From Beijerinckiaceae bacterium (GTDB taxonomy: Bacteria > Pseudomonadota > Alphaproteobacteria > Rhizobiales > Beijerinckiaceae), in contig CANGTC010000006.1 in the NCBI GenBank assembly GCA_947456505.1, forward strand, positions 1-62,458: a stretch of 62,458 nucleotides of DNA, written 5' to 3'. Shown here one piece after another: positions 2,591 to 49,275 of this stretch (the stretch's first letter is position 1; the number at the start of each line of letters is the position of its first letter). Both the position numbers and the translations under genes were made by a program. Below the pieces are notes generated by a model. The model searched no databases. It saw only the letters and a list, made by a program, of their open reading frames with translations, and had not been told where the DNA came from.

Positions 2591-3075
2591 TTCCCGTATC
2601 CCCGCAGAGACGATTTGAGCGGCAGTTCGATCAGGTCGAAATAATCGACATCGACCTCATGGTTCCTCGCCAGGAAATCCGGATCGACCTTCTCCAATTT
2701 CACGACTTCTTTTTTTATGGCGTTCAGATGTCGTGAGGCTTCGCTCTTCTTGTCATGTAATTGTTCAATGTATGTCGGCATGATCGGGCAATCGCCATCA
2801 AACGAAAATCGACGGGAGTGGGGATTGAAGGAGAGCGGATATAGGGTGCAAGAGAAAGGTTTGTCATCGCCCATCGTACAGCCCGAAGGGCCCAGGTTCT
2901 TGCAGGCCGTCTCTATGCAAACGCTTCCAGTTTTGGAGACCTCTGTTGCCGTCAACGTTACCTCAAGTGGTGGGTACCCCGATTCAACGATGCAGCATCG
3001 CTGACATTCGGCGCAATGGTCAAACAACATCGGACCTCTCCAAGTGAAGGCCGTTGCCCCCGAATTGAATTTCAA
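2587..3075 (-). CDS. YkgJ-type CxxCxxCC cysteine cluster protein
   Basis: This 162-residue protein carries the Zn/Fe-chelating CxxCxxCC motif (Cys21, Cys24, Cys27, Cys28), plus later cysteines at about 53, 58, 66, 75 and 95, including FSCTLYPLSF, which is the usual second half of the family (Pfam CxxCxxCC, formerly UPF0153). The function of the family is largely unknown; it is thought to bind a metal or iron-sulfur cluster. The C-terminal third is charged and helical. The gene overlaps the next gene by 4 bases (ATGA), so the two products are probably made together. Met16 is a possible alternative start. Confidence 0.75.
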   Translation of the reverse strand: MKFNSGATAFTWRGPMLFDHCAECQRCCIVESGYPPLEVTLTATEVSKTGSVCIETACKNLGPSGCTMGDDKPFSCTLYPLSFNPHSRRFSFDGDCPIMPTYIEQLHDKKSEASRHLNAIKKEVVKLEKVDPDFLARNHEVDVDYFDLIELPLKSSLRGYGK

Positions 3076-3814
3076 CCTAGAGGACGAATCATATAGACGA
3101 ATTATTCTTATTAGATAATCTTTCTTTCTGGCAATTGGGTCTTGGCTTCTATCCTAGGGTTATGGGCGTTTTGAGCGACGACCAACAGATTTTTTCCTCC
3201 ATGTCTGTTTGGAATTACCATTCATCCCGCCCATGGCTGCTTCATCTTTCACCTTGTTGACCAACCCTTCTTGGGTTCGCCATCTGCATGTTTCGCCTTT
3301 TGGATGAGTGGCGAGGGGGTCGACGGGGTTGGACACGTCGCCATGTTGCACAAGCATTTCTGATGTTCACGTCGAGGGCGCCTTGTGAGCATATTCGTTC
3401 TTTGTTTCTCATCATTGCATCACTAGCTCCACTTTATTTTCGTCCGTGCGAGGTTCAACCAGGCGAGTTGGACCATAGCTTCTGTTTTGTTCGCCTGCGG
3501 GGCATCAGTCCCCGATGATCGGTGAATGGCGCAGGGGCCTCAGGCTCAAAGCGGCTTTGGTTCCCGGCGCGTGCCGCCTGGTCCCTTGGTCTATTCGGGT
3601 GTGGGGGAGGGCGATTGATCAGTGCAGGGTTGCGCCGGGGCTTCGCCTGTTGGAGGGAGCGGCGCCGGTGGCGGCGCCCCTTCACAGAAAATTGGGGCTC
3701 AGAGACCCCATATTTTTCATTCATCCCACTGGACGGGCCTTCGGAAAACCTTACAATTGAGACCAACGGCGTTGCTGAACTGCGAGAAGACGCCTGTTCG
3801 TCAAGGGGTGGCTC
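3076..3814. other. Gene-poor stretch between the modifier cluster and iorAB-type genes
   Basis: About 740 bases lack a convincing gene. Several short overlapping frames exist on both strands but none shows a family signature or a good ribosome site. A 65-codon minus-strand frame at 3160-3357 reads as a basic peptide and might be a relic. GC-rich self-complementary sequence (GGCGCCGGTGGCGGCGCC, about 3659-3676) could fold as an RNA hairpin. A ribosome site AAGGGG at about 3800-3805 serves the next gene. Confidence 0.5.
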
Positions 3815-4270
3815 ATGGCTAAAATCGCTTTAAATGTGGATGGTAAGGATCACAAGATCGACGCTGATCCGGATATGCCGTTGCTGTATGCCCTGCGCGA
3901 TGATCTGGGCTTGCGCAATCCAAGGTTTGGCTGCGGCCTCGCCCAGTGCGGAGCCTGCACCGTCATCGTGGATGGTGTGGCGACCCGCTCCTGCGTGACG
4001 CCCGTCGATTCGGTCCAGAAGAGCAAGATTGTGACGCTGGCGGGCCTGGGCGGCGGCAAGGCGCACAAGCTGCAGGAGGCCTATATCGCCGAGCAGGTGC
4101 CCCAATGCGGCTACTGCATCAACGGCTGGATCATGACCGCCGCCGCTTTCCTTGAGAAGAACCCCAAGCCTACGGAGGCGCAGATTCAGGAGGCTTTGAC
4201 GGGCATCAAGTGCCGGTGCGGCACGCATATGGCGATCATGCGCGCTATCGTGCGCGCGGCGCAGGCTTGA
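3815..4270 (+). CDS. iorA: (2Fe-2S) subunit of a molybdenum hydroxylase (isoquinoline 1-oxidoreductase alpha type)
   Basis: This is the small electron-transfer subunit of a xanthine-oxidase-family hydroxylase. It binds two [2Fe-2S] clusters: Cys40, Cys45, Cys48 and Cys60 in the plant-ferredoxin-like N-domain, and Cys98, Cys101, Cys133 and Cys135 in the C-terminal helical domain (QCGYC and KCRCG). Length 151 is normal. There is no signal peptide; such subunits usually travel with the Tat-tagged large subunit. The downstream molybdopterin subunit starts 11 bases after this stop. No FAD subunit is present, matching the two-subunit IorAB or nicotinate-hydroxylase type that passes electrons to a cytochrome. 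Confidence 0.9.
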   Translation: MAKIALNVDGKDHKIDADPDMPLLYALRDDLGLRNPRFGCGLAQCGACTVIVDGVATRSCVTPVDSVQKSKIVTLAGLGGGKAHKLQEAYIAEQVPQCGYCINGWIMTAAAFLEKNPKPTEAQIQEALTGIKCRCGTHMAIMRAIVRAAQA

Positions 4271-4281
4271 GGGGGGCTGTC

Positions 4282-6561
4282 ATGAATCATCAGATCAATC
4301 GTCGTCATCTTCTTTCTGGCGCAGGCGCTCTCACCGTCTCTGTCCTGGCCCCCGGTGAAAAGGCGCGCGCCTATGTCGCCACCGCAGGTGTGGCCTCCCG
4401 TCCGGCGCTCAAGCCGACCCGGCTCGCCTCTTACATCTCGATCAACGCTGATGGCGGCGCCACAGCCTGGTTCGGCAAGCCCGACATGGGGCAGGGCACC
4501 GACGTCGGCGTCGCCCAGATGGTCGCCGAAGAGCTGGACCTTCCCTCCGAGCGCGTCACGGTCGTCTTTGGTGACACCGCCGTCACCATGAACCAGGGCG
4601 GCGCCTCTGGCTCCTTCGGCGTGCAGGCGGGCGGCAAGGCCATGGCTAATGCGGCTGCGGAGGCGCGTCTCATTCTTGTGGAGATGGCCTCCAAGAAGCT
4701 GGGCGTCCCCGTCGAGGGCCTCACTATCGAGAATGGCGTTGTCATCGCCAAGGCCGACCCCGCCAAGCGCGTCAGCTATGGCGAGTTGATCGGCGGCCGC
4801 TGGTTCGACCATGAGGTCGAATGGAACGGCGAGATCGGCAATTTCCTCGACATCAAGAACATGCGCGCCAAGCGCAAGGATCCCAAGGATTACAAGGTCT
4901 ATGGCACCTCCCCGCCGCGTCGCGACGTGCCGGAGATCGTGCTGGGCTCCTCCGATTACGTCGTCGACGTCAAGTTGCCGGGCATGGTGCATGGTCGCAC
5001 CATTCTGCCGCCGGTAGCGGGCGCCGTGCCGGTCAAGATCGACGAGGCCTCCGTCAAGGACATCCCTGGCGTTCAGATCGTCAAGGAAGGCGCCTTCCTG
5101 GGTGTCGTCGCCCCCCGCGAATGGGATGCGGTGAAGGCGGCTCGCCAGCTGAAGGTCACCTGGTCCGAGGTCAAGTCGCCTTTCGTGGACCAGAAGGACA
5201 TCTACAAGCACATCCGCAACGCCCCGGCCATCAAGAGCGGCGGCGACAAGGCCAATACAGAAAAGGCGAAGATGGACGAGGCCTTCAAGGGCGCGGCCAA
5301 GATCATCGAGGCGACCTACGAGTTCCCCTTCCAGTCCCATGCCTGCATGGGACCGGGCTGCGCCGTGGTCGACTATCAGCCTGACGGTATCTCACGGTTG
5401 TGGACCGGTTCCCAGAAGCCGCATTACGCGGCCGATGGCGTCGCCGCCGTTCTCGGCGTCCCGCCCGAAAAGATGCAGGGAATCTGGGTGCGCGGCCCCG
5501 GCTCCTATGGCCGTGGTGATGCTGGCGATGCGGCGAACGCCGCCGCCATCCTCGCCAAGGCGGTCGGCAAGCCCGTCCGCTATCAGGCCCAGCGCCATGA
5601 GGCTCATGGCTGGGACCCCAAGGGACCTGCCTCGATCCACATGATGCGTGCTGGCGTCGACAAGGATGGGAAGGTGATCGCCTGGGAATACAAGTCCAAG
5701 GGCTTCGATCAGCGCGATGTGGATTCGAACGAGAGCAAGCCCTACGATAACCTCTTCAGCCAGTTGACCGGTGTGAAGCCGAAGCCCAGCCTCTACTTCG
5801 GGCTTCCCGAGGAATCCTACGTGTTCCCCGCCAAGAGCCTGTCGTTCGAGGTTATAGCGCCCATGCTGGAGTCGGGCTCGCCCCTGCGTTCCTCGCATTT
5901 GCGTGACCCCGTGGGCTCCAACAACCATTTCGCCTTCGAGAGCTTCGTGGACGAAGTCGCTTTTGCGACAGGCATGGATCCCGTTGATTTCCGTCTGCAA
6001 TACATCGGCAACGAACGCGACCGGGAACTCGTCAAGATCCTCGCCGAGAAGTCCGGCTGGCAGAAGCACACGGGGGCGCGCAAGCAGCGTCGTGGCGATG
6101 TGGCCATCGGCCACGGCATCTCCTTCGTGTTGCGTGGGCCTACCCGCGTCGCGATCTTCGCCGAGGTCGAGGTGAACATGAAGACCGGCAAGGTCTGGGC
6201 CAAGCGTATGGTCGTGGCCCATGACTGCGGCGTCGTGATCAACCCCGAGCTCCTCAAGATGACCATCGAGGGCAACATCTGCATGGGCCTCAGCCGCGCG
6301 CTCATGGAGGAGGTGACCTTCGACAAGAACAACGTCACCAGTGTGGATTGGGAGACCTATCCGATCCTCGACATGACCCAGAAGCCGGAGTCGGTGGAGG
6401 TGGTTCTGGTCAACCGTCAGAACATTCCGCCGTCTGGCGCTGGCGAGGGCTCCATGCGTCCGATCGCGGCTGCGGTCGCCAACGCCATCTTCGACGCGAC
6501 GGGTGTGCGCATCCGCCAGGCGCCCTTCACGCCGGATCGCGTCAAGGCTGGCATGGCCTGA
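4282..6561 (+). CDS. iorB: Molybdopterin-binding subunit of a xanthine dehydrogenase-family hydroxylase (IorB type)
   Basis: The 759-residue large subunit hydroxylates an aromatic N-heterocycle or aldehyde using a molybdenum cytosine dinucleotide cofactor. It shows the family phrases KPDMGQGTDVG, NQGGASGSFGVQAGG, RGPGSYGRGDAGDAA and, near the end, PPSGAGEGS with the catalytic-type glutamate. The N-terminus (INRRHLLSGAGAL) has a twin arginine followed by a hydrophobic stretch, so export as a folded complex is likely. The ATG at 4282, preceded by GAGGGGGG, fits better than an upstream in-frame ATG inside the previous gene. No dedicated cytochrome subunit or XdhC-type chaperone is adjacent. The exact substrate is unknown. 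Confidence 0.88.
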   Translation: MNHQINRRHLLSGAGALTVSVLAPGEKARAYVATAGVASRPALKPTRLASYISINADGGATAWFGKPDMGQGTDVGVAQMVAEELDLPSERVTVVFGDTAVTMNQGGASGSFGVQAGGKAMANAAAEARLILVEMASKKLGVPVEGLTIENGVVIAKADPAKRVSYGELIGGRWFDHEVEWNGEIGNFLDIKNMRAKRKDPKDYKVYGTSPPRRDVPEIVLGSSDYVVDVKLPGMVHGRTILPPVAGAVPVKIDEASVKDIPGVQIVKEGAFLGVVAPREWDAVKAARQLKVTWSEVKSPFVDQKDIYKHIRNAPAIKSGGDKANTEKAKMDEAFKGAAKIIEATYEFPFQSHACMGPGCAVVDYQPDGISRLWTGSQKPHYAADGVAAVLGVPPEKMQGIWVRGPGSYGRGDAGDAANAAAILAKAVGKPVRYQAQRHEAHGWDPKGPASIHMMRAGVDKDGKVIAWEYKSKGFDQRDVDSNESKPYDNLFSQLTGVKPKPSLYFGLPEESYVFPAKSLSFEVIAPMLESGSPLRSSHLRDPVGSNNHFAFESFVDEVAFATGMDPVDFRLQYIGNERDRELVKILAEKSGWQKHTGARKQRRGDVAIGHGISFVLRGPTRVAIFAEVEVNMKTGKVWAKRMVVAHDCGVVINPELLKMTIEGNICMGLSRALMEEVTFDKNNVTSVDWETYPILDMTQKPESVEVVLVNRQNIPPSGAGEGSMRPIAAAVANAIFDATGVRIRQAPFTPDRVKAGMA

Positions 6562-6607
6562 GAAAACCAAGCGCCGGGGCCATGAGCTTCGGCGCAATAT
6601 CGCCTGC

Positions 6608-6633
6608 AAGCGCGCCTCCGGGCGCGCTTTTTT
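6608..6633 (+). terminator. Rho-independent terminator after the molybdenum hydroxylase genes
   Basis: AAGCGCGCC (6608-6616), loop TCCG and GGCGCGCTT (6621-6629) form a perfect 9-bp stem followed by a run of T to 6633. It closes the two-gene iorAB-type operon. Confidence 0.85.
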
Positions 6634-6682
6634 CTTGCGCTGCAAATCGCCATGGCCGCCATCCTGCTGCGGGCGCTTCGTG

Positions 6683-7532: not shown

Positions 7533-8549
7533 ATGGGCATCAAGTCCGTCGCCGCAGCTCTCGTCAGCCTGGTTTTCCTCTTCGGCGCGCAAGCCCGGGC
7601 GGCGGATTTCTACGAAGGCAAGACGATCACCATCATCGTCGGCTTCACGCCGGGCGGCACCTATGACCAGATCGCGAGATTCTATGCGCGCCATCTGCCC
7701 CGTTTCATCACGGGCAAGCCGACGATCATCGTGCAGAACATGCCGGGCGCCGCCTCGTTGGTGGCGACCGTGTCCCTCGCCAATACGGCGGCGCGTGATG
7801 GCACTGTGCTGGGCATCATTGGCGGTGGTACGGCGATGGAGCCTGTGCTGGGCAATCCGCAGGCGCGCTTTGACGCTCGCCAGTTCGGCTGGATTGGCGG
7901 CAAGTCCGGCGACCATTTCATGTGCGCCGTCTCGAACCGCATTCCCGTCGCCAGCATTGAAGACGCAAAAAAGCGCGAGATCATCGTGGGCTCCACCGGT
8001 ACGGGCTCACGCACCATGTCCTTCCCTGTGGCGCTCAATGAGCTTGTCGGCACGAAGTTCAAGGTGGTGTCCGGCTATCCCGGCGGCAATGAAATCACGC
8101 TGGCTCTGGAGAAGGGCGAGGTCGAGGGCTATTGCGGCTGGGCCATATCCTCCATTCGTCAACGCAGCGCCGACTGGATCAAACAGGGCAAGATCCGGTT
8201 TCTGACCCAGTTCGCCCTGTCGAAGAACCCCGACTTCCCTGATGTGCCCCTCGCCATGGACTTGCCCGCCACTGAGGCGGGTCGCCGCGCAATCGAATTC
8301 ATCAGTTCGGACAGCATCAACGCCTGGCCTCTGATCGCGCCGCCCGGCACGCCTGCCGAACGGGTCGAACTACTGCGCGGCGCTTTGGATGCCATGCTGC
8401 GCGACCGCGCCATCATCGCCGAAGCGGAGCGCGAAGGGATGGATATAGATGTCATCCCCGGCCGCGACCTCGAAAGCGTCGTCCGCCGCCTTTATGCGAG
8501 CCCGCCGGAAGTTGTGGCGCTGGTGCGCAAGTTCAGCGAAGCCCGGTGA
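7533..8549 (+). CDS. Tripartite tricarboxylate transporter (TctC/Bug-type) solute-binding protein
   Basis: This 338-residue periplasmic receptor has a clear Sec signal peptide (hydrophobic core ending ARA|ADFYEG) and the family phrases DFYEGKTITIIVGFTPGG and a ligand-loop region PGAASLVA. TctC/Bug proteins bind organic acids with a Venus-flytrap fold. No TctA or TctB membrane gene is near. The ATG at 7533 preceded by GCGAGGGG is preferred over a GTG at 7509 that overlaps the previous gene. Linkage to the decarboxylase-like gene suggests a dicarboxylate or aryl-malonate type ligand, which is inference. Confidence 0.85.
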   Translation: MGIKSVAAALVSLVFLFGAQARAADFYEGKTITIIVGFTPGGTYDQIARFYARHLPRFITGKPTIIVQNMPGAASLVATVSLANTAARDGTVLGIIGGGTAMEPVLGNPQARFDARQFGWIGGKSGDHFMCAVSNRIPVASIEDAKKREIIVGSTGTGSRTMSFPVALNELVGTKFKVVSGYPGGNEITLALEKGEVEGYCGWAISSIRQRSADWIKQGKIRFLTQFALSKNPDFPDVPLAMDLPATEAGRRAIEFISSDSINAWPLIAPPGTPAERVELLRGALDAMLRDRAIIAEAEREGMDIDVIPGRDLESVVRRLYASPPEVVALVRKFSEAR

Positions 8550-8560
8550 TGGTCTGAGCC

Positions 8561-9535
8561 TCAGTTGGTAAAGAGGTTGCCCGCTTCAACCACCCGGCGC
8601 CAGTTGTTGAACTCCGTCTTCAGAGCGCTTCCAAAGTCGGCGCTGGTTCCCCGGAAGGTGGTCGCGCCTTCCTCCTCGAAACGCTTGCGCATGGCGGGCG
8701 CCGCCGCGGCTTCGTTGATGGAGGCGTTGAGCTGTGCGACCAGATCCGCAGGCATGTTTTGCGGGCCCACGATGCCCCACCAGGTCTCGAGATTGAGGCC
8801 CGGCACACCTTCCTCCGCCAGGGTCGGGGTGTCCGGGAAGAGAGGGGAACGCTTGTCGCTGGTCACCGCCAGCAGCCTCACATTCTTGCTCTGCACCTGC
8901 CCGAGGATCGTGGGCACGGTGGATATGAAGACCTCCGCCCGCCCGGCGATCAGATCGATCACCGCGGGTCCGCTGCCGCTATAGGGCACATGGGTCAGGT
9001 TGATCTGGGCCTTCTGTTTGAAGAGTTCGGTGGCCAGATGCAGGATGCCGCCGACGCCGGAGGACACATAATTCAGGGCGTCGGGCTTGGCTTTCGCGGT
9101 CGCGACGATCTCGCGAACTGATGTTAGGCCCGACTGGTTGCTGCTGACGACCAGCAGGGGACCGCGCCCCAGCATGGCGATGGGCGTGAAGTCCCTCTCC
9201 ACGTCATAGCTCGGCGTCTTCTGAGTGGCGGCCGTGGTGATGAAGGTGGAGGTGACGAAGAGCAGCATGGTTCCATCCGGCGCCGCCTTCGAGGTGGTGC
9301 GGGCGGCGATCTGTCCCCCGGCGCCGCCCCGGTTGTCGATGATCACGCTCAACTTCTGCGCTTCCGTGAGGATGCGGCCAAGTTCGCGCGCCAGGAGGTC
9401 CGTTCCACCCCCGGGAGCGAAGGGAACGAGGATCGAAATGGGCTTGGAGCCAGACGCCTGTTGGGCCATGGCTGGCGCGCTGGCGCCCAGCAGGAGGCCT
9501 GCGGCGACCACGACCATGCGTCTGCTGAGTTTCAT
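8561..9535 (-). CDS. TctC/Bug-type tricarboxylate solute-binding protein
   Basis: The 324-residue receptor begins MKLSRRMVVVAAGLLLGAS and has a typical signal peptide cleaved near AMAQQ. The mature part opens with ISILVPFAPGGGTDLLAREL, the classic Bug-family N-terminus, and includes RGGAGG and PYSGSGPAV loop sequences. It differs from the DFYxGK subgroup elsewhere in the window. It converges on the previous receptor with only 11 bases between the genes. No TctAB partner is visible. The open frame extends far upstream to 9772, but residue 80 of that frame is the natural start because the signal peptide begins there. Confidence 0.88.
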   Translation of the reverse strand: MKLSRRMVVVAAGLLLGASAPAMAQQASGSKPISILVPFAPGGGTDLLARELGRILTEAQKLSVIIDNRGGAGGQIAARTTSKAAPDGTMLLFVTSTFITTAATQKTPSYDVERDFTPIAMLGRGPLLVVSSNQSGLTSVREIVATAKAKPDALNYVSSGVGGILHLATELFKQKAQINLTHVPYSGSGPAVIDLIAGRAEVFISTVPTILGQVQSKNVRLLAVTSDKRSPLFPDTPTLAEEGVPGLNLETWWGIVGPQNMPADLVAQLNASINEAAAAPAMRKRFEEEGATTFRGTSADFGSALKTEFNNWRRVVEAGNLFTN

Positions 9536-15533: not shown

Positions 15534-16118
15534 GTGGAAGCATCATCGCAAGTTCATCTTGATAAGGACGCAGGCCAATCCGGCCCCGCGCCGCATCCAC
15601 ATCGCATGCTCGATGGCGGCGCCCTCGTGTTTCTTGCGACAGTTCTGCTTTCATTGATATGCATAGCCTTCCTCGCGCTCAATATTTTTGCGGCGGCTCA
15701 TCATCTTGAGACGGCCAAACGCAATGCCGAGACCGTTGCGCGGGTGCTTGCGGACGTCGGCGCCAAGCGCAAGGCCGGGCAACCCGAAGTCGCTGAGTGT
15801 CATCTGCGTCCAGAAGATGCGGGTAAGTTGACCTGGGGTCCATGCTGGGAAGCGATCACCAAACTCCCTGAAATCGCCAAGCTCACGAATCCCCTTCAAC
15901 CCGAGAATAACGTGTTCGGTCCCCCCTGCGATGGGTCTGACGAGAGCATTGGCCGCATCACCCTCGAAAAAGGCACGCCCTGGTTCTCAGCTGGCAACAC
16001 AGGCGTGACCTACGCGGCTAGCGATAGCGACGATTCCATCGCCACAGAGACGCCCCTGCGCGTGCAGGTTTGCAACCGCTGGGGCGAGGCCGTCAAAGTT
16101 CAGGAGCTCAAGTTTTGA
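15534..16118 (+). CDS. Single-pass membrane protein with cysteine-rich extracytoplasmic domain, partner of the channel (copy A)
   Basis: I do not recognise a named family. The 194-residue protein has a hydrophilic N-tail, one strong transmembrane helix (about 30-53, ALVFLATVLLSLICIAFLAL), a helical stalk rich in A and K, and a C-terminal domain predicted outside the membrane with four cysteines (89, 104, 132, 180). All four are kept in the second copy at 48679-49275, which is nearly identical from the helix onward. Start is GTG, matching an internal GTG in the other copy. Its TGA overlaps the TTG start of the channel gene (TTGA), so the two are translationally coupled. A role as an auxiliary channel subunit or sensor is inference. 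Confidence 0.7.
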   Translation: MEASSQVHLDKDAGQSGPAPHPHRMLDGGALVFLATVLLSLICIAFLALNIFAAAHHLETAKRNAETVARVLADVGAKRKAGQPEVAECHLRPEDAGKLTWGPCWEAITKLPEIAKLTNPLQPENNVFGPPCDGSDESIGRITLEKGTPWFSAGNTGVTYAASDSDDSIATETPLRVQVCNRWGEAVKVQELKF

Positions 16119-17728
16119 CCGCGCCCTCACCGACACCGCACGATGACGCATCAACTGATGACGCGCACCCCAGCATGGGCCGGCGCATTTATTCGTTCGT
16201 GCTGGACCCGGACGTAAAAGGGAATCTGCAGGGGCCGATCGAAAATTTTGTTGCCTGTCTGATCTTGTTGAACGTGGGTTTGATGCTGCTGGAAACCATC
16301 CCGCAGGTCTATGAGCCCTATGCGAAACTGTTCCATTTCATCGATACGACCTCGATCTTCATCTTCACTCTGGAATATGTCGTCAGATTTCTTCTGTCCC
16401 CATACCAGAAAGATCTGACGGGCAAACGCTTCCCTCGTATTTCCTATGCGTTGTCGCCATTTGCTGTGATCGATCTTCTCTCGATCCTGCCTTTCTATCT
16501 CTCGGCTTTCATCGCGCTCGACCTGCGCATCCTGCGCGTCTTGCGTCTGCTGCGCCTGCTCAAGCTCTTCCGCGTGCTCATCCCCGCCTGGAAGGAGTTT
16601 CGCGACCTGAACCGGGGGCGTACTTTCCGGCAACATGTGCACGCCCTTGTCTGGCCATCGCGCTATGGCGGGCAGATCCACAATTTCTTCGATCTGTTCA
16701 TCATCTTTTGGGTGCTGATCTCGGTTCTGTCTGTGCTCATGGAGACTGTGGACGCAGTCCACTACATTCTCGCCATGGAATTTTCGATCCTTGATTCCAT
16801 CGCGGTCGCGGTCTTCACCACTGAATATCTGATGCGTATTTATTCCTGCGTTGAGGATCCGAGGTTCAAGGAAGCCTATTCCGGCCGCGCGCGCTATGCG
16901 CTGACGCCTGGCGCGGTGATCGACGCCCTGGCCGTCATGCCCTTCTTCCTGGAAGCGCTGCTGCACCATCTTTTCGATCTGCGCTTCCTGCGAATTTTCC
17001 GTATGCTTCGCTTGCTGAAGCTGACCCGTTTCAGCGATGCGACCAAGCTTGTTTGGGACGGAATCAAGCGCGAAGCCGGCACCATCGGCGCATCCTTCTT
17101 CGTGATGCTGCTGGTGATCATCCTCTGCGGAGCAGTTGGCTATCTCTTCGAGCACGCGGCCCAACCGGAGAAGGTCGACAGCATCCCGACCGCCATTTAT
17201 TGGTCCGTCATTACGCTGGGTAGCGTCGGCTACGGCGACATTTCGCCCATAACCTCCATGGGCAGAGTGATCGCTTCACTCATGGCGCTCCTGGGCATCG
17301 CGCTCATCGCCATCCCCTCGGGTATTCTCGCCGCCGCCTTCACCGATCAATTGCGCATTGAACGCGAAAAGATCGGCACGAAGATCGTCGAGATGATGGA
17401 GAATGAAATCATCGATCCGGATGAAAAAGCGCAGCTGGAGGCGGATGCGCGCAGATTGCACATCACTAGCCTTGAACTTGAGCAGATGATCAAAGTGTCT
17501 CAGGAGCGCAGGGCGCATGACAGAGCGCTCAGATCCGAGTTCAACCTTAGCGCCGCAAGCATCGATCCGCAGTTGGCTCTTGTGCAATTCCGTAACATTC
17601 TCGAACAGATGAAAGTGATCGTGAAGGTCTCGGACGACAAGCTCGCCCAGGTTATGGGGAACAGTGACAGTCCCACCGCGCTGGAAAAGCGCATCTACAA
17701 TCAGCTCACGGGGTCGCAGCGCTCGTAA
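16115..17728 (+). CDS. Ion channel with two voltage-sensor domains and one pore (copy A)
   Basis: The 537-residue protein (from TTG at 16115) reads as S1-S4, a short linker, a second S1-S4, then S5, pore loop and S6. VSD1: helices about 43-60, 72-93, 114-133, and S4 134-157 with basic residues every third position (R138, R141, R144, R147, K150, R153). VSD2: 190-211, 221-243, 264-282, and S4 286-308 (R290, R293, R296, R299, K302, R305). Both S2 helices share an FTxEYxxR motif. The pore carries ITLGSVGYGD, a K+-type selectivity filter. A roughly 125-residue cytoplasmic, helical tail follows S6. AGGAG at 16102-16106 gives ideal spacing to the TTG, whereas an upstream in-frame ATG lies within the partner gene and adds an unlikely leader. 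K+ selectivity is expected; gating is unknown. Confidence 0.82.
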   Translation: MTAPSPTPHDDASTDDAHPSMGRRIYSFVLDPDVKGNLQGPIENFVACLILLNVGLMLLETIPQVYEPYAKLFHFIDTTSIFIFTLEYVVRFLLSPYQKDLTGKRFPRISYALSPFAVIDLLSILPFYLSAFIALDLRILRVLRLLRLLKLFRVLIPAWKEFRDLNRGRTFRQHVHALVWPSRYGGQIHNFFDLFIIFWVLISVLSVLMETVDAVHYILAMEFSILDSIAVAVFTTEYLMRIYSCVEDPRFKEAYSGRARYALTPGAVIDALAVMPFFLEALLHHLFDLRFLRIFRMLRLLKLTRFSDATKLVWDGIKREAGTIGASFFVMLLVIILCGAVGYLFEHAAQPEKVDSIPTAIYWSVITLGSVGYGDISPITSMGRVIASLMALLGIALIAIPSGILAAAFTDQLRIEREKIGTKIVEMMENEIIDPDEKAQLEADARRLHITSLELEQMIKVSQERRAHDRALRSEFNLSAASIDPQLALVQFRNILEQMKVIVKVSDDKLAQVMGNSDSPTALEKRIYNQLTGSQRS

Positions 17729-19061: not shown

Positions 19062-20207
19062 TTGAGACGCAGCGACACCAGGATTTTGACCACTCATGTG
19101 GGCAGCCTTCCATTCCCGTCCCTGGATCGTGGGTTGGCGGTCGGCGATGCCTCCCATTTGAAGGAAGACGCAGCTGGAGTCGTGCGGCGCCAGCGCGATC
19201 TTGGCGTTGATGTCATCAACGAGGGTGAGTACACCAAGGGCGGAGACTGGCTCCGCTATATGCAGAACCGCTTCGGCGGCTTTGCCGATATCGAGGCGAC
19301 CGGCGAAAAGCCATTGATCGAACAGGGCAGGGACAGGGAGGCTTTTTCAGAGTTTTATAAATACGCCAGCGAGCGTGGCACCCTGTTCTTTGCGCCAGGC
19401 GAGCAGATGCAGAAGAAGCGTCCGGTGCAGGCCTGCACGGGGCCGGTCGTTTATGCGGGCGCTGAGGAGTTGCAGCGGGAAATTGAAATCACGCGCGAGG
19501 TCGCAGGGCTTGAGGACGTCTTTTTGACCTCCACGGCGCCAGCGAGCCTCGAGGTCTATCGCCGCAATCGTTTTTACAAGAGCGACGAGGCCTATGTCTT
19601 CGCCATCGCCGAGGCGATGCGTGTGGAATATGAGGCGATCAGCGATGCTGGTTTTATTCTGCAGGTCGATGACGCCTGGTTGCCCGCCTTGTGGGATCGT
19701 ATTGGAATGGGCATGGGAATGGCGGCCTTTCGCGCGCGCTGTGAAATGCGCATTGAGGCCTTGAACCATGCGCTTCGCAATATCCCTGAAGAGCGCGTGC
19801 GCTATCACCTGTGCTGGGGATCCTGGCATGGTCCGCACGCCTTTGATCTTGAGTTGGAGCATATTGTCGACATCATGCTCAAGGCCAAGGCGCAAGCCTA
19901 CCTCATCGAGGGCGCAAATGCGCGCCATGAGCATGAGCACGCCTTGTGGGAGAAGGTGAAGCTGCCTGCTGGCAAGATCCTCATTCCCGGCGTCGTCAGC
20001 CATTCGACTGATGTGGTGGAGCATCCCGAGCTCGTGTCGCAGCGGCTGCAACGCTATGCGCGGCATGTGGGCAAGGAAAATGTCATCGCGGGAACCGATT
20101 GTGGTTTTGGCGGACGCTCGCATCCGCAAATCGCCTGGGCGAAGCTACGATCCCTGGTGGAAGGCGCCGCCCTCGCAAGCAAGGCGCTTGGCCTCCCACA
20201 GGGTTAG
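19062..20207 (+). CDS. Core methionine-synthase-like (MetE C-terminal/UROD-superfamily) zinc methyltransferase
   Basis: The 381-residue protein corresponds to the C-terminal catalytic half of cobalamin-independent methionine synthase. The four zinc ligands are all present: His249 and Cys251 (YHLCWGS), Glu283 (LIEGAN) and Cys347 (GTDCGFG). The N-terminal folate-binding half of full MetE is absent. Such short proteins act as core MetE enzymes or as alkyl-thiol transferases (for example epoxyalkane:coenzyme M transferase). TTG is the likely start, seven bases downstream of GGGAGG; no nearer ATG fits. A strong terminator follows. The methyl donor or epoxide substrate is unknown. Confidence 0.8.
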   Translation: MRRSDTRILTTHVGSLPFPSLDRGLAVGDASHLKEDAAGVVRRQRDLGVDVINEGEYTKGGDWLRYMQNRFGGFADIEATGEKPLIEQGRDREAFSEFYKYASERGTLFFAPGEQMQKKRPVQACTGPVVYAGAEELQREIEITREVAGLEDVFLTSTAPASLEVYRRNRFYKSDEAYVFAIAEAMRVEYEAISDAGFILQVDDAWLPALWDRIGMGMGMAAFRARCEMRIEALNHALRNIPEERVRYHLCWGSWHGPHAFDLELEHIVDIMLKAKAQAYLIEGANARHEHEHALWEKVKLPAGKILIPGVVSHSTDVVEHPELVSQRLQRYARHVGKENVIAGTDCGFGGRSHPQIAWAKLRSLVEGAALASKALGLPQG

Positions 20208-20242
20208 TCGCCTTTCGTCTAGCTGCCCTCAAGAGAAAGCGG

Positions 20243-20275
20243 GGCCACCACCCGCCAGCAGGTGGTGGCCTTTTT
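20243..20275 (+). terminator. Rho-independent terminator after the MetE-like gene
   Basis: GGCCACCACC (20243-20252), 8-base loop and GGTGGTGGCC (20261-20270) form a perfect 10-bp stem followed by TTTTT. Confidence 0.9.
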
Positions 20276-20371
20276 GCGTCGCAGCCCCGCGCTCAGGAGG
20301 TTGAGCCCGGAACCAAAAGACCCAACAGATATTATTTCCAGCTGGACTGGAACAATCTGGCGGGTTGGAGC

Positions 20372-22197
20372 ATGAGCGACACTGGGGTTCCAATTCACGA
20401 CGATCTTCTCAAGCAGCAGACTGTCTTCGCGCGGTTCGGCGAGTTCGCCCTGAAATCTGATGATCTCGATCAGATCTTGACTGAGGCGTGTCGATTGGCG
20501 GGCGAGGCGCTGGGAACCGATCTCGCCAAGGTCGTTCAGCTGCATGAGGATGGGCAGACCATGACCGTGCGGGCGGGCGTGGGCTGGGCCCCGAATGTCA
20601 TTGGCGTCGCCACGGTCAATGCCTCTGAAGATACTTCGGAGGGCCATTGCCTGCGCACGGGGGAGCCCATGATCTCTCCTGACATCGCTAAGGAGACCCG
20701 GTTCAGGTATCCGCAGTTCCTGATCGATAATGGCGTGCGGGCTGTCGCTAATGTGATCATCATTGGTGGGCAGGGGAGGCCGCCTTTCGGCGTATTGCAA
20801 ATCGACAGTCGGGCGCCGCGCGAGTTCACACAGACCGACACGCTGTTTCTTCGCAGCTACGCCAATCTTCTGGCCGCTGCGGTGGATCGCATTCGCGTCA
20901 GCAATGAGGGTCGTGAGAAGGAGGAACGCCTGCGCCAAGTGTTGCAGGAAACAGTCGCACAGCGAACGTTGGAGCTGACCGAAGCCAATGATCGGCTCAA
21001 GGCTGAGGCGGAAGAGCGTGGCAGGTGGAGGAGGCCCTGCGTCAATCTCTCAAGATGGAGGCGGTGGGTCAATTGACTGGCGGTCTCGCCCATGACTTCA
21101 ATAATCTTCTGGCCGGCATCTCCGGCAGCCTTCAGTTGATGAACATGCGGGTCAATCAGGGGCGCATCTCAGAAATCGGTCGCTATATGGAAGCCGCCAT
21201 GACCTCTGTTGAGCGAGCGGCCGCCTTGACCCATCGATTGCTCGCCTTTTCAAGGCGGCAAACCCTCGATCCAAAGCCAACGGATGTGAACGGTTTGATC
21301 GAAGGCATGCGCGACATGTTCAGCCGTACGGTCGGGCCTGGCATCAAGATCGAGACGTCCCTTGCCCCTGAGCTCTGGGCGACTCTCTGCGATCCCAATC
21401 AATTGGAAAATGCGCTTTTGAATCTTGTCATCAATGCGCGTGACGCCATGCCGGATGGTGGACATATCATGTTGGAAACTTCAAATTGCGTGCTCGCTGA
21501 TTACCGGGGTCCTCAAGTCGACAACATTTCCGGGCGGGTGCCGAATGGTGAATATATGGCGCTCTTCGTCATCGATACTGGAAGCGGCATGGCGCCCGCT
21601 GTAATTGAACGAGCCTTCGATCCTTTTTTCACGACAAAGCCCATTGGTCAGGGCACAGGGCTTGGCCTGTCGATGATCTATGGCTTTGTGCAGCAATCGG
21701 GTGGCCATGTGTTATTGCGCAGCGCCGAAGGGCATGGCACGACCGTCGCCATCTATCTGCCCCGTTATCTGGGGGCGGAGGTTAGCGTCGAGAGCAACAA
21801 GAGCATTGCGCATATTTAACAAGCGGAAGCGGGCGTGGTGGTCTTGCTGGTGGAAGATGAGGCGGCGGTGAGGCTCGTGATGGCTGATGTGCTGGCTGAC
21901 AACGGCTATGCCGTGCTGGAAGCCGATACCGGCGAGAACGCCTTGCGGCAGATCCGTTCGCCGGCGCGTATTGATTTGCTGCTGAGCGATGTGGGCCTTC
22001 CTGGCGGGATGAATGGCCGCCAATTGGCGGATGCCGCGCGTGAATACAGACCGAACCTTAAGGTGCTGTTCGTGTCAGGCTATGATGAGCAGGCTGCTCT
22101 GGGCAGCGGGCTGATGGGCGAGGGCATGGCCATCATGACGAAGCCTTTTAATATCGCATCATTTTCAGCCAAGGTGCAGGATCTCATGCACAAATGA
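20372..22197 (+). pseudogene. Hybrid sensor histidine kinase (GAF-HisKA-HATPase-REC) broken by a frameshift and an in-frame stop
   Basis: Three adjacent frames add up to one hybrid kinase. The first (20372-about 21022) has a GAF-type sensor domain and a coiled-coil linker. After one missing base near 21020-21023 the reading continues one frame back with VEEALRQSLKMEAVGQL, the H-box HDFNNLL, the N-box NLVINARDAMPDGG and G-boxes DTGSGM and GTGLGLS. A TAA at 21817-21819, in frame, then interrupts the linker before a receiver domain (21835-22197) with LLVEDE, phospho-acceptor Asp in LLLSDVG and the KPF lysine. Relatives carry these domains on one chain, so the gene is probably inactive, unless it is expressed as split proteins or the breaks are sequencing errors. 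ATG at 20372 follows GGTTGGAG. Confidence 0.75.
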
Positions 22198-47056: not shown

Positions 47057-48682
47057 TCAACTGCTTTTGCTTGACGCTTTTTGCGCGGCGATTTGTTCGA
47101 AGATGGACTTCTCAAGATTGGAGGCCTCACCATCAGCATGGATGACGCTCTCCAGTTTCTGGTCCGCGATGTAGACGATCTGTTTCATTTGACTGACCAG
47201 ACTGCGGAACTGCTCGAAGGCGAGATCCCCATCCTGGCTGGCCGCGTTGAGGTTGAACTCGGTTCTGATGTTTTTATCCATCAACCGGTTACGCTCGGCC
47301 AATTTTATCATGGCGTCCAGTTCGGCGTCCGTGATGTGGAGCCTTCTGGCGTCATCCTGAAGCAAGGCCTGTTCATCCGTATTGGCGTCGCCTTTGCTCA
47401 TCATGGCTGCGATCTTAGCGCCGATATTTTCGCGTTCGATGCGTAGCTGATCGGTGAAGGCCGCCGATAGAATACCAGAGGGAATGGCGACGAGCGCGAT
47501 GCCCAAGAGCGCCATTAACGAGGTGATGAAGCGGCCCATGGGCGTGATCGGGGAAATGTCGCCGTAGCCCACGCTGGACAGGGTGATCACCGACCAATAG
47601 ATGGCGCCTGGAATGCTCTCGAACTTGTCAGGCTGCGCGGCGTGCTCCAGCAGGTAGCCAAGACTGCCGCAGAGGATGATGACGAGCAACAGCACGAAGA
47701 ACGAGGCGCCGATGGTTCCCGCTTCGCGTTTGATGCCGTCCCAGACAAGCTTGGTCGCGTCGCTGAAGCGGGTGAGCTTGAGCAGTCGCAACATGCGGAA
47801 AATTCGCAAGAAGCGCAGATCGAAGAGATGATGCAGCAGCGCTTCGAGAAAGAAGGGCATGACGGCAAGCGCGTCGATCACCGCGCCCGGGGTGAACCCG
47901 TATCGCGCACGCCCCGCATAAGCCGACTGGAACCTTGGATCTTCCACGCAGGAATACATGCGCATCAGATATTCGGTCGTGAAGATCGCGACTGCGACGG
48001 AGTCGAGGATCGCGAATTCCATGGCGAGGATATAGTGAACGGTCTCCACTGTCTCCAGCAGCACGGACACGACTGACAGAACCACCCATATGATGATGAA
48101 AAGATCGAAGAAGTGATGGATCTGCCCGCCAAACCTGGAAGGCCAGACGATGGCGTGTACATGCTGACGGAATGTGCGTCCCTTGTTAAGCTGGCGAAAC
48201 TCCTTCCACGCGGGGATGAGCACGCGAAACAGCTTCAGCAGTCTCAGCAGACGCAAGACGCGCAGAATACGCAGATCAAGCGCGATGAAGGCCGAAAGAT
48301 AGAAGGGAAGGATCGACAGGAGGTCGATCACCGCAAAAGGCGATAACGCATAGGAGATGCGGGGGAACCGTTTGTCCTCCATCCCCCTCTGGTATGGGGA
48401 GAGAAGGAAACGGACCACATATTCCAGAGTGAAGATGAAGATCGACGTCGTATCGATGAAATGGAACAGCTTCGCATAGGGCTCGTAGACCTGCGGAATG
48501 GTCTCCAGCAGCATCAAGCCGACGTTCAGAATGATCAGACAGGCGACGAAGTTCTCGATAGGCCCCTGAAGATTTCCCTTAACGTCAGGGTCGAGCAGAA
48601 ACGAATAAATGCGCCGACCGAGGCTTGGGCGCGCAGGTTTTCCCGGAACGTCGTTTTCAGGTGTCGGGGAGGGCGCGGTCAA
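47057..48682 (-). CDS. Ion channel with two voltage-sensor domains and one pore (copy B)
   Basis: The 541-residue protein has the same order as copy A at 16115-17728: S1-S4, linker, second S1-S4, S5, pore, S6, C-tail. The two S4 helices and both FTxEYxxR S2 motifs are intact. The filter is ITLSSVGYGD against ITLGSVGYGD in copy A. By eye about 43 of roughly 400 aligned residues differ between residue 22 and the end of S6, while the C-tail is much more diverged. TTG at 48682 lies inside TTGA with the partner's stop, and CAGGAG sits just upstream. Physiology is unknown; K+ selectivity is expected. Confidence 0.82.
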   Translation of the reverse strand: MTAPSPTPENDVPGKPARPSLGRRIYSFLLDPDVKGNLQGPIENFVACLIILNVGLMLLETIPQVYEPYAKLFHFIDTTSIFIFTLEYVVRFLLSPYQRGMEDKRFPRISYALSPFAVIDLLSILPFYLSAFIALDLRILRVLRLLRLLKLFRVLIPAWKEFRQLNKGRTFRQHVHAIVWPSRFGGQIHHFFDLFIIIWVVLSVVSVLLETVETVHYILAMEFAILDSVAVAIFTTEYLMRMYSCVEDPRFQSAYAGRARYGFTPGAVIDALAVMPFFLEALLHHLFDLRFLRIFRMLRLLKLTRFSDATKLVWDGIKREAGTIGASFFVLLLVIILCGSLGYLLEHAAQPDKFESIPGAIYWSVITLSSVGYGDISPITPMGRFITSLMALLGIALVAIPSGILSAAFTDQLRIERENIGAKIAAMMSKGDANTDEQALLQDDARRLHITDAELDAMIKLAERNRLMDKNIRTEFNLNAASQDGDLAFEQFRSLVSQMKQIVYIADQKLESVIHADGEASNLEKSIFEQIAAQKASSKSS

Positions 48683-49275
48683 AACTTGATCTCCTGGACT
48701 TTGACGGCCTCGCCCCAACGGTTGCAAACCTGTACGCGCAGGGGCGTCTCTGTGACGATGGAGTCTTCAGCATCGCTCGCCGCATAGGTGACGCCAGTTG
48801 TGCCGGCGGAGAACCAGGGCGTGCCCTTTTCGATGGTGATCCGGCCAATGCTCTCGTCAGACCCATCGCAGGGGGGGCCGAACACGTCATTCTCGGGTTG
48901 AAGCGGATTTGCGAGTTTCGCGATCTCCGGGAGTTTCGCGATTGCTTCCCAGCAGGGCCCCCAGTTCAACTTGCCCGCATCTTCCGGGCGCAAATGACAC
49001 TCGGCGACTTCTGGCTGACCGGCTTTGCGCTTGACGCCCACATCCGTGAGGACGCGCGCGACTGTTTCCGCGTTGCGTTTCGCCAGTTCAAGATGATGGG
49101 CGGCGGCGAAGATGTTGAGCGCCAGGAAGGCGATGCTGATCAAGGAAACAACGACTGTCGCCAGAAAAACGATGGCGCCGCCGTCGAGCAAACGATGCGA
49201 CTTCGGCGCAGGGTCCTGATGATCAGCGTGATCGTGAATGTCGATTTTTGATGTTGCTTCCACGCGATCTCTCAT
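48679..49275 (-). CDS. Single-pass membrane protein with cysteine-rich extracytoplasmic domain, channel partner (copy B)
   Basis: The 198-residue protein is the homologue of the one at 15534-16118. After a divergent tail rich in D and H it has a transmembrane helix (VFLATVVVSLISIAFLALNI), the AKRNAETVARVL stalk, and the same C-terminal domain with four conserved cysteines (ECHL, GPCWE, PPCDG, QVCNR). The ATG at 49275 adds four residues before the GTG equivalent to the copy A start. Its stop overlaps the channel TTG start. Confidence 0.7.
   Translation of the reverse strand: MRDRVEATSKIDIHDHADHQDPAPKSHRLLDGGAIVFLATVVVSLISIAFLALNIFAAAHHLELAKRNAETVARVLTDVGVKRKAGQPEVAECHLRPEDAGKLNWGPCWEAIAKLPEIAKLANPLQPENDVFGPPCDGSDESIGRITIEKGTPWFSAGTTGVTYAASDAEDSIVTETPLRVQVCNRWGEAVKVQEIKF

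Follow-up and report, generated by a model that had tools for sequence, protein, structure and literature searches.

A gene in the 62,458-nucleotide stretch of Beijerinckiaceae DNA that we analysed (the window) encodes a channel in which two voltage sensors, VSD1 and VSD2, both complete as judged from their sequences, are followed by a single K+-type pore (Table 1). This VSD-VSD-pore order is near certain. We collected 47 distinct ORFs of this tandem kind from 39 genomes or records, and in all 47 two VSDs stand before one pore, in breach of the rule of one sensor per pore-forming unit that, to our knowledge, holds for voltage-gated channels. We propose, with a rough probability of 0.55, that the protein is a voltage-gated K+ channel subunit whose extra sensor, VSD1, is electrically competent and modulates gating, and that a small membrane protein encoded next to it, which we call PART, serves as a dedicated accessory subunit.

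In a Pfam profile search, Ion_trans (PF00520) matches the protein of channel copy A in two separate stretches. The first (16238-16576) covers profile positions 4-111 of 241, or S1-S4, and the second (16679-17347) covers positions 1-235, or S1-S6; the score of 147.4 bits, against a gathering cut-off of 25, places the protein in this superfamily. A preliminary description of this DNA had claimed the same order and had reported a similar S2 motif, FTxEYxxR, in both sensors; the motif reads FTLEYVVR in VSD1 and FTTEYLMR in VSD2. The two sensors are 33% identical over 133 aa (BLASTP, E 5e-22), and their S4 sequences are DLRILRVLRLLRLLKLFR (VSD1) and DLRFLRIFRMLRLLKLTR (VSD2). A family profile of VSD1 only, built from 18 sequences and compared with solved structures, matched Cav3.2 over S1-S4 (E 4.7e-13), Kv4.2 over S2-S4 (E 2.1e-11) and KCNQ2 from pre-S1 to S4 (E 2.1e-10), as well as further sensors. 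The worry that helices 1-4 might lie outside the voltage-sensor family thus finds no support in the profile comparison. S1-S3 of both sensors and S4 of VSD1 showed peaks in a 17-residue hydropathy scan, as did S5, the pore helix and S6. The C-terminal domain gave a marginal peak (1.01), and S4 of VSD2 had no peak of its own. From homology we read ten helices plus a pore loop in each copy A chain. The C-terminal domain had no Pfam match above cut-off, and a second in-frame TTG lies upstream of the start of copy A, at 16070.

Table 1. Features of the window, followed by the 6TM genes of the Burkholderiales-type operons (positions in the respective record).
Feature	Position	Strand	Details
PART copy A	15534..16118	+	194 aa, one TM, four invariant Cys; TGA stop overlaps channel TTG as TTGA
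Tandem-VSD channel copy A	16115..17728	+	537 aa, TTG start
VSD1 (pre-S1 plus S1-S4)	16172..16588	+	residues 20-158; Pfam, PDB sequence match, conservation
S4 of VSD1	16520..16573	+	D136-R153; basic R138 R141 R144 R147 K150 R153
VSD1-VSD2 linker	16589..16684	+	residues 159-190 (32 residues); too short for a pore
VSD2	16685..17068	+	residues 191-318; Pfam, conservation
S4 of VSD2	16976..17029	+	D288-R305; basic R290 R293 R296 R299 K302 R305
Pore domain S5-P-S6	17069..17359	+	residues 319-415; Pfam Ion_trans_2 at 331-410
Selectivity filter	17213..17239	+	residues 367-375, T-L-G-S-V-G-Y-G-D
C-terminal domain	17360..17725	+	residues 416-537; presumably cytosolic; fastest-evolving part
Tandem-VSD channel copy B	47057..48682	-	intact; 78% identical to copy A
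PART copy B	48679..49275	-	198 aa
Two 6TM channels downstream of tandem gene, L038	4825-6692		
Two 6TM channels downstream of tandem gene, L039	6626-8493		
Two 6TM channels downstream of tandem gene, L040	6628-8492		
Two 6TM channels downstream of tandem gene, L154	8826-10707		
Two 6TM channels downstream of tandem gene, L155	6802-8674		

The features that define the two sensors are strongly conserved. Residue counts refer to the 28 tandem ORFs that were aligned first; the other 19 were fetched later. In VSD1, E87, Y88 and R91 (S2) and D120 (S3) occur in 28/28 and F84 in 27/28, and the six S4 charge positions are kept in 25-28 of the 28. In VSD2, F234, E237, R241 and D270 are invariant, with the S4 charges kept in 27-28. 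Both sensors therefore appear intact, as had been claimed, each with its charge-transfer residues and six S4 charges. The linker keeps P157 in every member and R169 and R172 in 27/28, and it is short in all 28, which rules out a hidden pore between the sensors and bears out the earlier statement that no pore follows the first S4. A K+ signature filter follows the second VSD only (G-Y/F-G-D in 47/47 tandems, in the form S-V/I-G-Y/F-G-D). A misassembled or chimeric ORF is ruled out by the number of distinct tandem ORFs, which occur in 38 genomes or records beyond the window, several of them single-contig genomes.

Conservation of VSD1 is not uniform. Its S4 changes length by three-residue steps in six of the 28 members, being shorter in L147, L148 and L150, shorter elsewhere in the helix in L153, and longer in L154_534 and L155_539; in the Gemmobacter protein, S4 is partly degenerate in both sensors. 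Comparison of seven pairs of close relatives gave a dN of 0.04-0.17 for VSD1 against a dS of 0.70-2.04 (near saturation in several of the pairs), which indicates that VSD1 is under purifying selection. In all but one of the seven pairs VSD1 evolves faster than VSD2; constraint is weakest in the C-terminal domain.

The closest known systems are the 6TM voltage-gated K+ channels of PF00520 in prokaryotes and eukaryotes (MVP/K_channel_Meth, KvAP, KCNQ and Kv4). They share with the tandem channel the VSD2-pore unit, the S4 charges, the S2/S3 charge-transfer residues of the pore-proximal VSD and the GYGD filter, and the best PDB sequence matches of the tandem channel are KCNQ4, KCNQ5 and Kv4.2; NF040645 matches it below cut-off (60 of 300 bits). 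The tandem channel has a Ser at the Thr position of TVGYG, and the EAG/hERG filter, SVGFGN, has Ser there too. It differs from the 6TM channels in the additional full VSD in front, joined through the 32-residue linker, and in its linked partner gene. Two-pore channels (TPCs) likewise have two voltage sensors per chain. However, they repeat the entire 6TM unit (PMC8665364), whereas the first unit of the tandem channel lacks S5-P-S6, its Ion_trans match ending at profile position 111, and so is not of the TPC type.

Like Hv1, VSD1 is a voltage sensor that has no pore domain of its own, and as a seemingly complete four-helix unit it could in principle form a permeation path of its own, as in the Hv1 proton channels. 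VSD1 differs from it in being fused to a VSD-pore unit. Hv channels require a carboxylate about mid-S1 (PMC10377628), and we compared VSD1 residue counts with the criteria given there. Of the 28 members, 23 have N at the mid-S1 polar position 53 of VSD1, four have S and one has A; the near-constant S1 acid, E60 (26/28), sits at the helix end, and S4 does not read RxWRxxR. A proton-channel role is thus disfavoured, and we regard a separate permeation path through VSD1 as very improbable.

Tandem channels were found in three groups and on one plasmid. The window's genus has 19 tandem ORFs in 14 genomes (including the Beijerinckiaceae MAG L037, counted as one genome with G695 since contig place and protein agree), the genus of G1354, mostly ~2-Mb genomes, has 19 in 18, and a Burkholderiales group has eight in six (L038 and L040, titled Comamonadaceae; L039, titled Betaproteobacteria; and G898, G796 and G978, from the family of G300). 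The remaining tandem is on a plasmid of Gemmobacter aquarius HYN0069 (WP_159082572.1) and is annotated only as 'ion transporter'. Many of the source genomes are MAGs or draft assemblies. The tandem is rare in the samples searched: it occurs in at least 1/297 genomes of the order (single-sequence query), at least 1/369 of the class of G300 and at least 2/398 of the phylum, and in full length in at least 4/299 of the family of G300, plus G891 with a broken frame; each sample includes its centre genome, and at most 3-4 candidates were scored per genome, so that these counts are lower bounds. Within the two tandem-bearing genera the proportions are 14 of 49 sampled genomes (window's genus) and 18 of 121 (genus of G1354). 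Dropped from the counts were G674 and G680, whose ORFs of 215 and 174 aa could not be classified (both genomes are tallied as tandem-less and have no PART), fragments in G704 and, interrupted by stops, in G1373, and also G891 and L174, a viral record with a partial ORF. Few sources are recorded; the Gemmobacter record and isolate names that we read as lake samples suggest a freshwater habitat.

Several other possibilities were considered and set aside. As regards a phage origin, two relatives lie in viral contigs. One of these is the 6.9-kb IMG/VR contig L174, which opens with an incomplete tandem ORF; the genes next to it resemble phage genes by eye, and the site may be a prophage border. Matches were also found in five phage records, but no match covers more than 80% of the query. 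As regards spread by plasmids, matches were found in 29 plasmid records; the best hit (Gemmobacter), the one examined, is a tandem. Six long stop-free frames of other relatives (L085, L096, L016, L025, L029 and L062) were read by eye for hidden tandems and look like 6TM channels with the frame extending upstream. We also observed that in L160 (G891), at 2896-5380, a tandem channel and PART are split into several frames, by gene decay or sequencing error. L016 and L034, from the window's order, contain adjacent pairs of 6TM channel genes, and one L016 protein has a C-terminal domain that by eye resembles the cyclic-nucleotide-binding type.

The tandem channels appear to have a single origin. 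In a tree of VSD2 plus pore, all 47 fall in one clade (bootstrap 100, SH-aLRT 99), in which six single-VSD channels are nested, five of the L159/L200 type and L158. The tree needs three changes between the tandem and single states, also across the 5%-95% bootstrap range, and because tandems make up the earliest branches of the clade, this is most simply explained if VSD1 was gained once and lost twice. In a tree of the sensors themselves, 27 of 28 VSD1s group apart from the VSD2s with moderate support (SH-aLRT 84), and the VSD1 of L137 is a long branch outside that group; this tree is built on few alignment columns, and many of its forks are weak. The sensor tree and one further tree exclude the broken L121 and any single-VSD channel scoring below 60 bits for the VSD; a pore ORF that gave no VSD hit was not used either. 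Two lineages apparently lost VSD1 yet retain VSD2 and the pore, so VSD1 appears not to be indispensable for a channel. The same losses could be taken to mean that VSD1 is a roleless vestige of a fusion, but the old single origin, the purifying selection and the near-invariance of key residues in both the alphaproteobacterial and the Burkholderiales lineages make this scarcely credible.

PART lies directly upstream of 40 of the 47 tandem genes (39 by the scan rule, plus L151). The protein has one TM segment and then a domain, probably periplasmic, with four cysteines that are invariant in 40/40 aligned members, one of which is the PART of single-VSD L158. Searches of Pfam and PDB with 16 members found nothing significant (best E 0.13 and 0.14), and the idea of a pilin was dropped, as one of the 16 touches TcpS at E 0.13, below cut-off. 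A candidate channel start codon overlaps the PART stop (TTGA or ATGA) at 14 of 39 junctions scanned, both window junctions included, in a scan that left out starts close to VSD1; the TTGA overlap in the window suggests translational coupling. Among 81 relatives, the genomes with PART are precisely the 14 that carry a full-length tandem, and in the genus of G1354 it is present in 17 of 18 tandem genomes and 0 of 103 others, the exception being G1380, whose tandem is divergent. Because PART thus occurs in 31/32 tandem genomes and 0/170 others (related genomes, and hence non-independent events), it is probably a dedicated subunit of the tandem channel. It resembles KCNE and other single-TM channel beta subunits in being a small membrane protein proposed as the companion of a voltage-gated K+ channel, and differs from them in lacking significant Pfam or PDB matches, in the four-cysteine domain after the TM segment and in a gene that adjoins the channel gene.

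PART is not strictly tied to VSD1, since it adjoins the single-VSD gene L158 and is absent next to seven of the 47 tandems (L142, whose paralogue L141 has PART; the second tandems of L154 and L155; L208; L152; L153; and L137). It was found neither in the fetched flanks of the other five nested single-VSD channels nor within about 1.5 kb of 12 more distant 6TM relatives, and had no match in plasmids. These patterns bear on the alternative that VSD1 is mainly a docking platform, which binds PART or a neighbouring subunit and whose movement with voltage is irrelevant to gating. The almost perfect co-occurrence of PART and tandem channels would fit such a role, as would the two nested lineages in which VSD1 is missing, where five of the six channels also lack a flanking PART. 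However, L158 and the seven tandems break the pattern, and a platform would have no need of six S4 charges and S2/S3 charge-transfer residues that are almost invariant. We consider this alternative unlikely.

A second alternative is that the tandem protein functions in a heteromeric channel, either with 6TM subunits from the same operon or with a tandem paralogue. The gene order PART - tandem channel - 6TM - 6TM occurs in five genomes of the Burkholderiales group (L038, L039, L040, G898 and G796). The filters of the two 6TM proteins, TIT[SA]GYGN and TI[IV]SGWGN, are one residue short in 10/10 proteins when the distance between the pore-helix Trp and the GYG-type motif is measured, whereas spacing is full in 47/47 tandems and in 21/21 other single-VSD ORFs scanned (one of them the broken L160). 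Such short filters are unlikely to be K+-selective as homomers, which suggests that the 6TM proteins form heteromers or have a regulatory role. A TerB-like C-terminal domain was considered for the L038 6TM proteins and rejected (E 0.011 and 0.0061, below cut-off; none in two tandem C-termini scanned). Between the two tandem genes of L154 (G898) lie frames at 5766-6662 and 8011-8592 (-), one for a different kind of 6TM-like protein that by eye resembles NaV and one for a membrane protein of 194 aa; such a grouping of channel-like genes is unusual.

Pairing of paralogues could occur in the window's genus. Copies A and B of the window are convergent, with ~29 kb between them, and G673 and G700, of the same genus, likewise have two convergent tandem copies, many of whose flanking genes match the window flanks at 80-90%. 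Because pair and flanks recur in this way, the two copies were inherited and are no assembly artefact. The preliminary description mentions neither copy B nor the two PART genes. In the tree of VSD2 plus pore, window copy W1 groups with L140 and L142 (98/93) and W2 falls in the other set with weak support (84/33). Downstream of copy A, at 20099-22197 (+), are frames that by eye resemble a GAF-type sensor kinase and a response regulator. Against a general need for 6TM partners, no such genes were found near either copy in the window genome, in the fetched flanks of the tandem gene of G978 (the sixth genome of the Burkholderiales group) or at the tandem loci fetched from the ~2-Mb genus. We therefore regard the heteromer as doubtful.

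Based on these comparisons, we favor a voltage-gated K+ channel subunit with an additional working sensor, and we postulate how it might operate. In Kv channels, the S4-S5 linker couples the pore-proximal VSD to the pore. By homology, four tandem subunits would form one pore with an SVGYGD filter, presumably K+-selective, and VSD2, which has the usual S4-S5 linker to S5, would open it. The S4 of VSD1 appears to continue through the conserved basic linker to the pre-S1 region and then S1 of VSD2. VSD1 could therefore act through S1: when its S4 moves, VSD2 would be influenced from the S1 side, and gating would be shifted or steepened without the pore being opened directly. PART would bind the sensor or the pore as a beta-type subunit. 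We know of no other channel with an S4-to-S1 linkage between sensors. Counted against this reading are the apparent losses of VSD1, the loose linkage of PART and VSD1, the length steps in S4 of VSD1, the degenerate S4s of Gemmobacter and the faster evolution of VSD1 than of VSD2.

A tetramer might carry eight sensors around one pore, and VSD1 might have a separate role, both of which had been raised in the preliminary description. More tentatively still, the tandem channel could be part of an undescribed complex that combines a K+-type pore, eight sensors (or an intermediate number in heteromers with the short-filter 6TM proteins), a disulfide-bonded periplasmic subunit and tuning of VSD2 by VSD1 through the S4-to-S1 linkage. 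No counterpart was found in open-licence papers on two-sensor, one-pore architecture and the wider field, in agreement with the earlier statement that no characterised channel was known to have the VSD-VSD-pore order; a description elsewhere is possible.

A natural family with a second sensor per subunit would provide a direct test of how sensors and pores are coupled, through the S4-S5 linker or from the S1 side, and of how the number of sensors sets the steepness of gating. Natural controls exist in the relatives without VSD1 and in those in which the S4 of VSD1 is shorter or longer by three residues. PART would represent a new protein family tied to the tandem channel.
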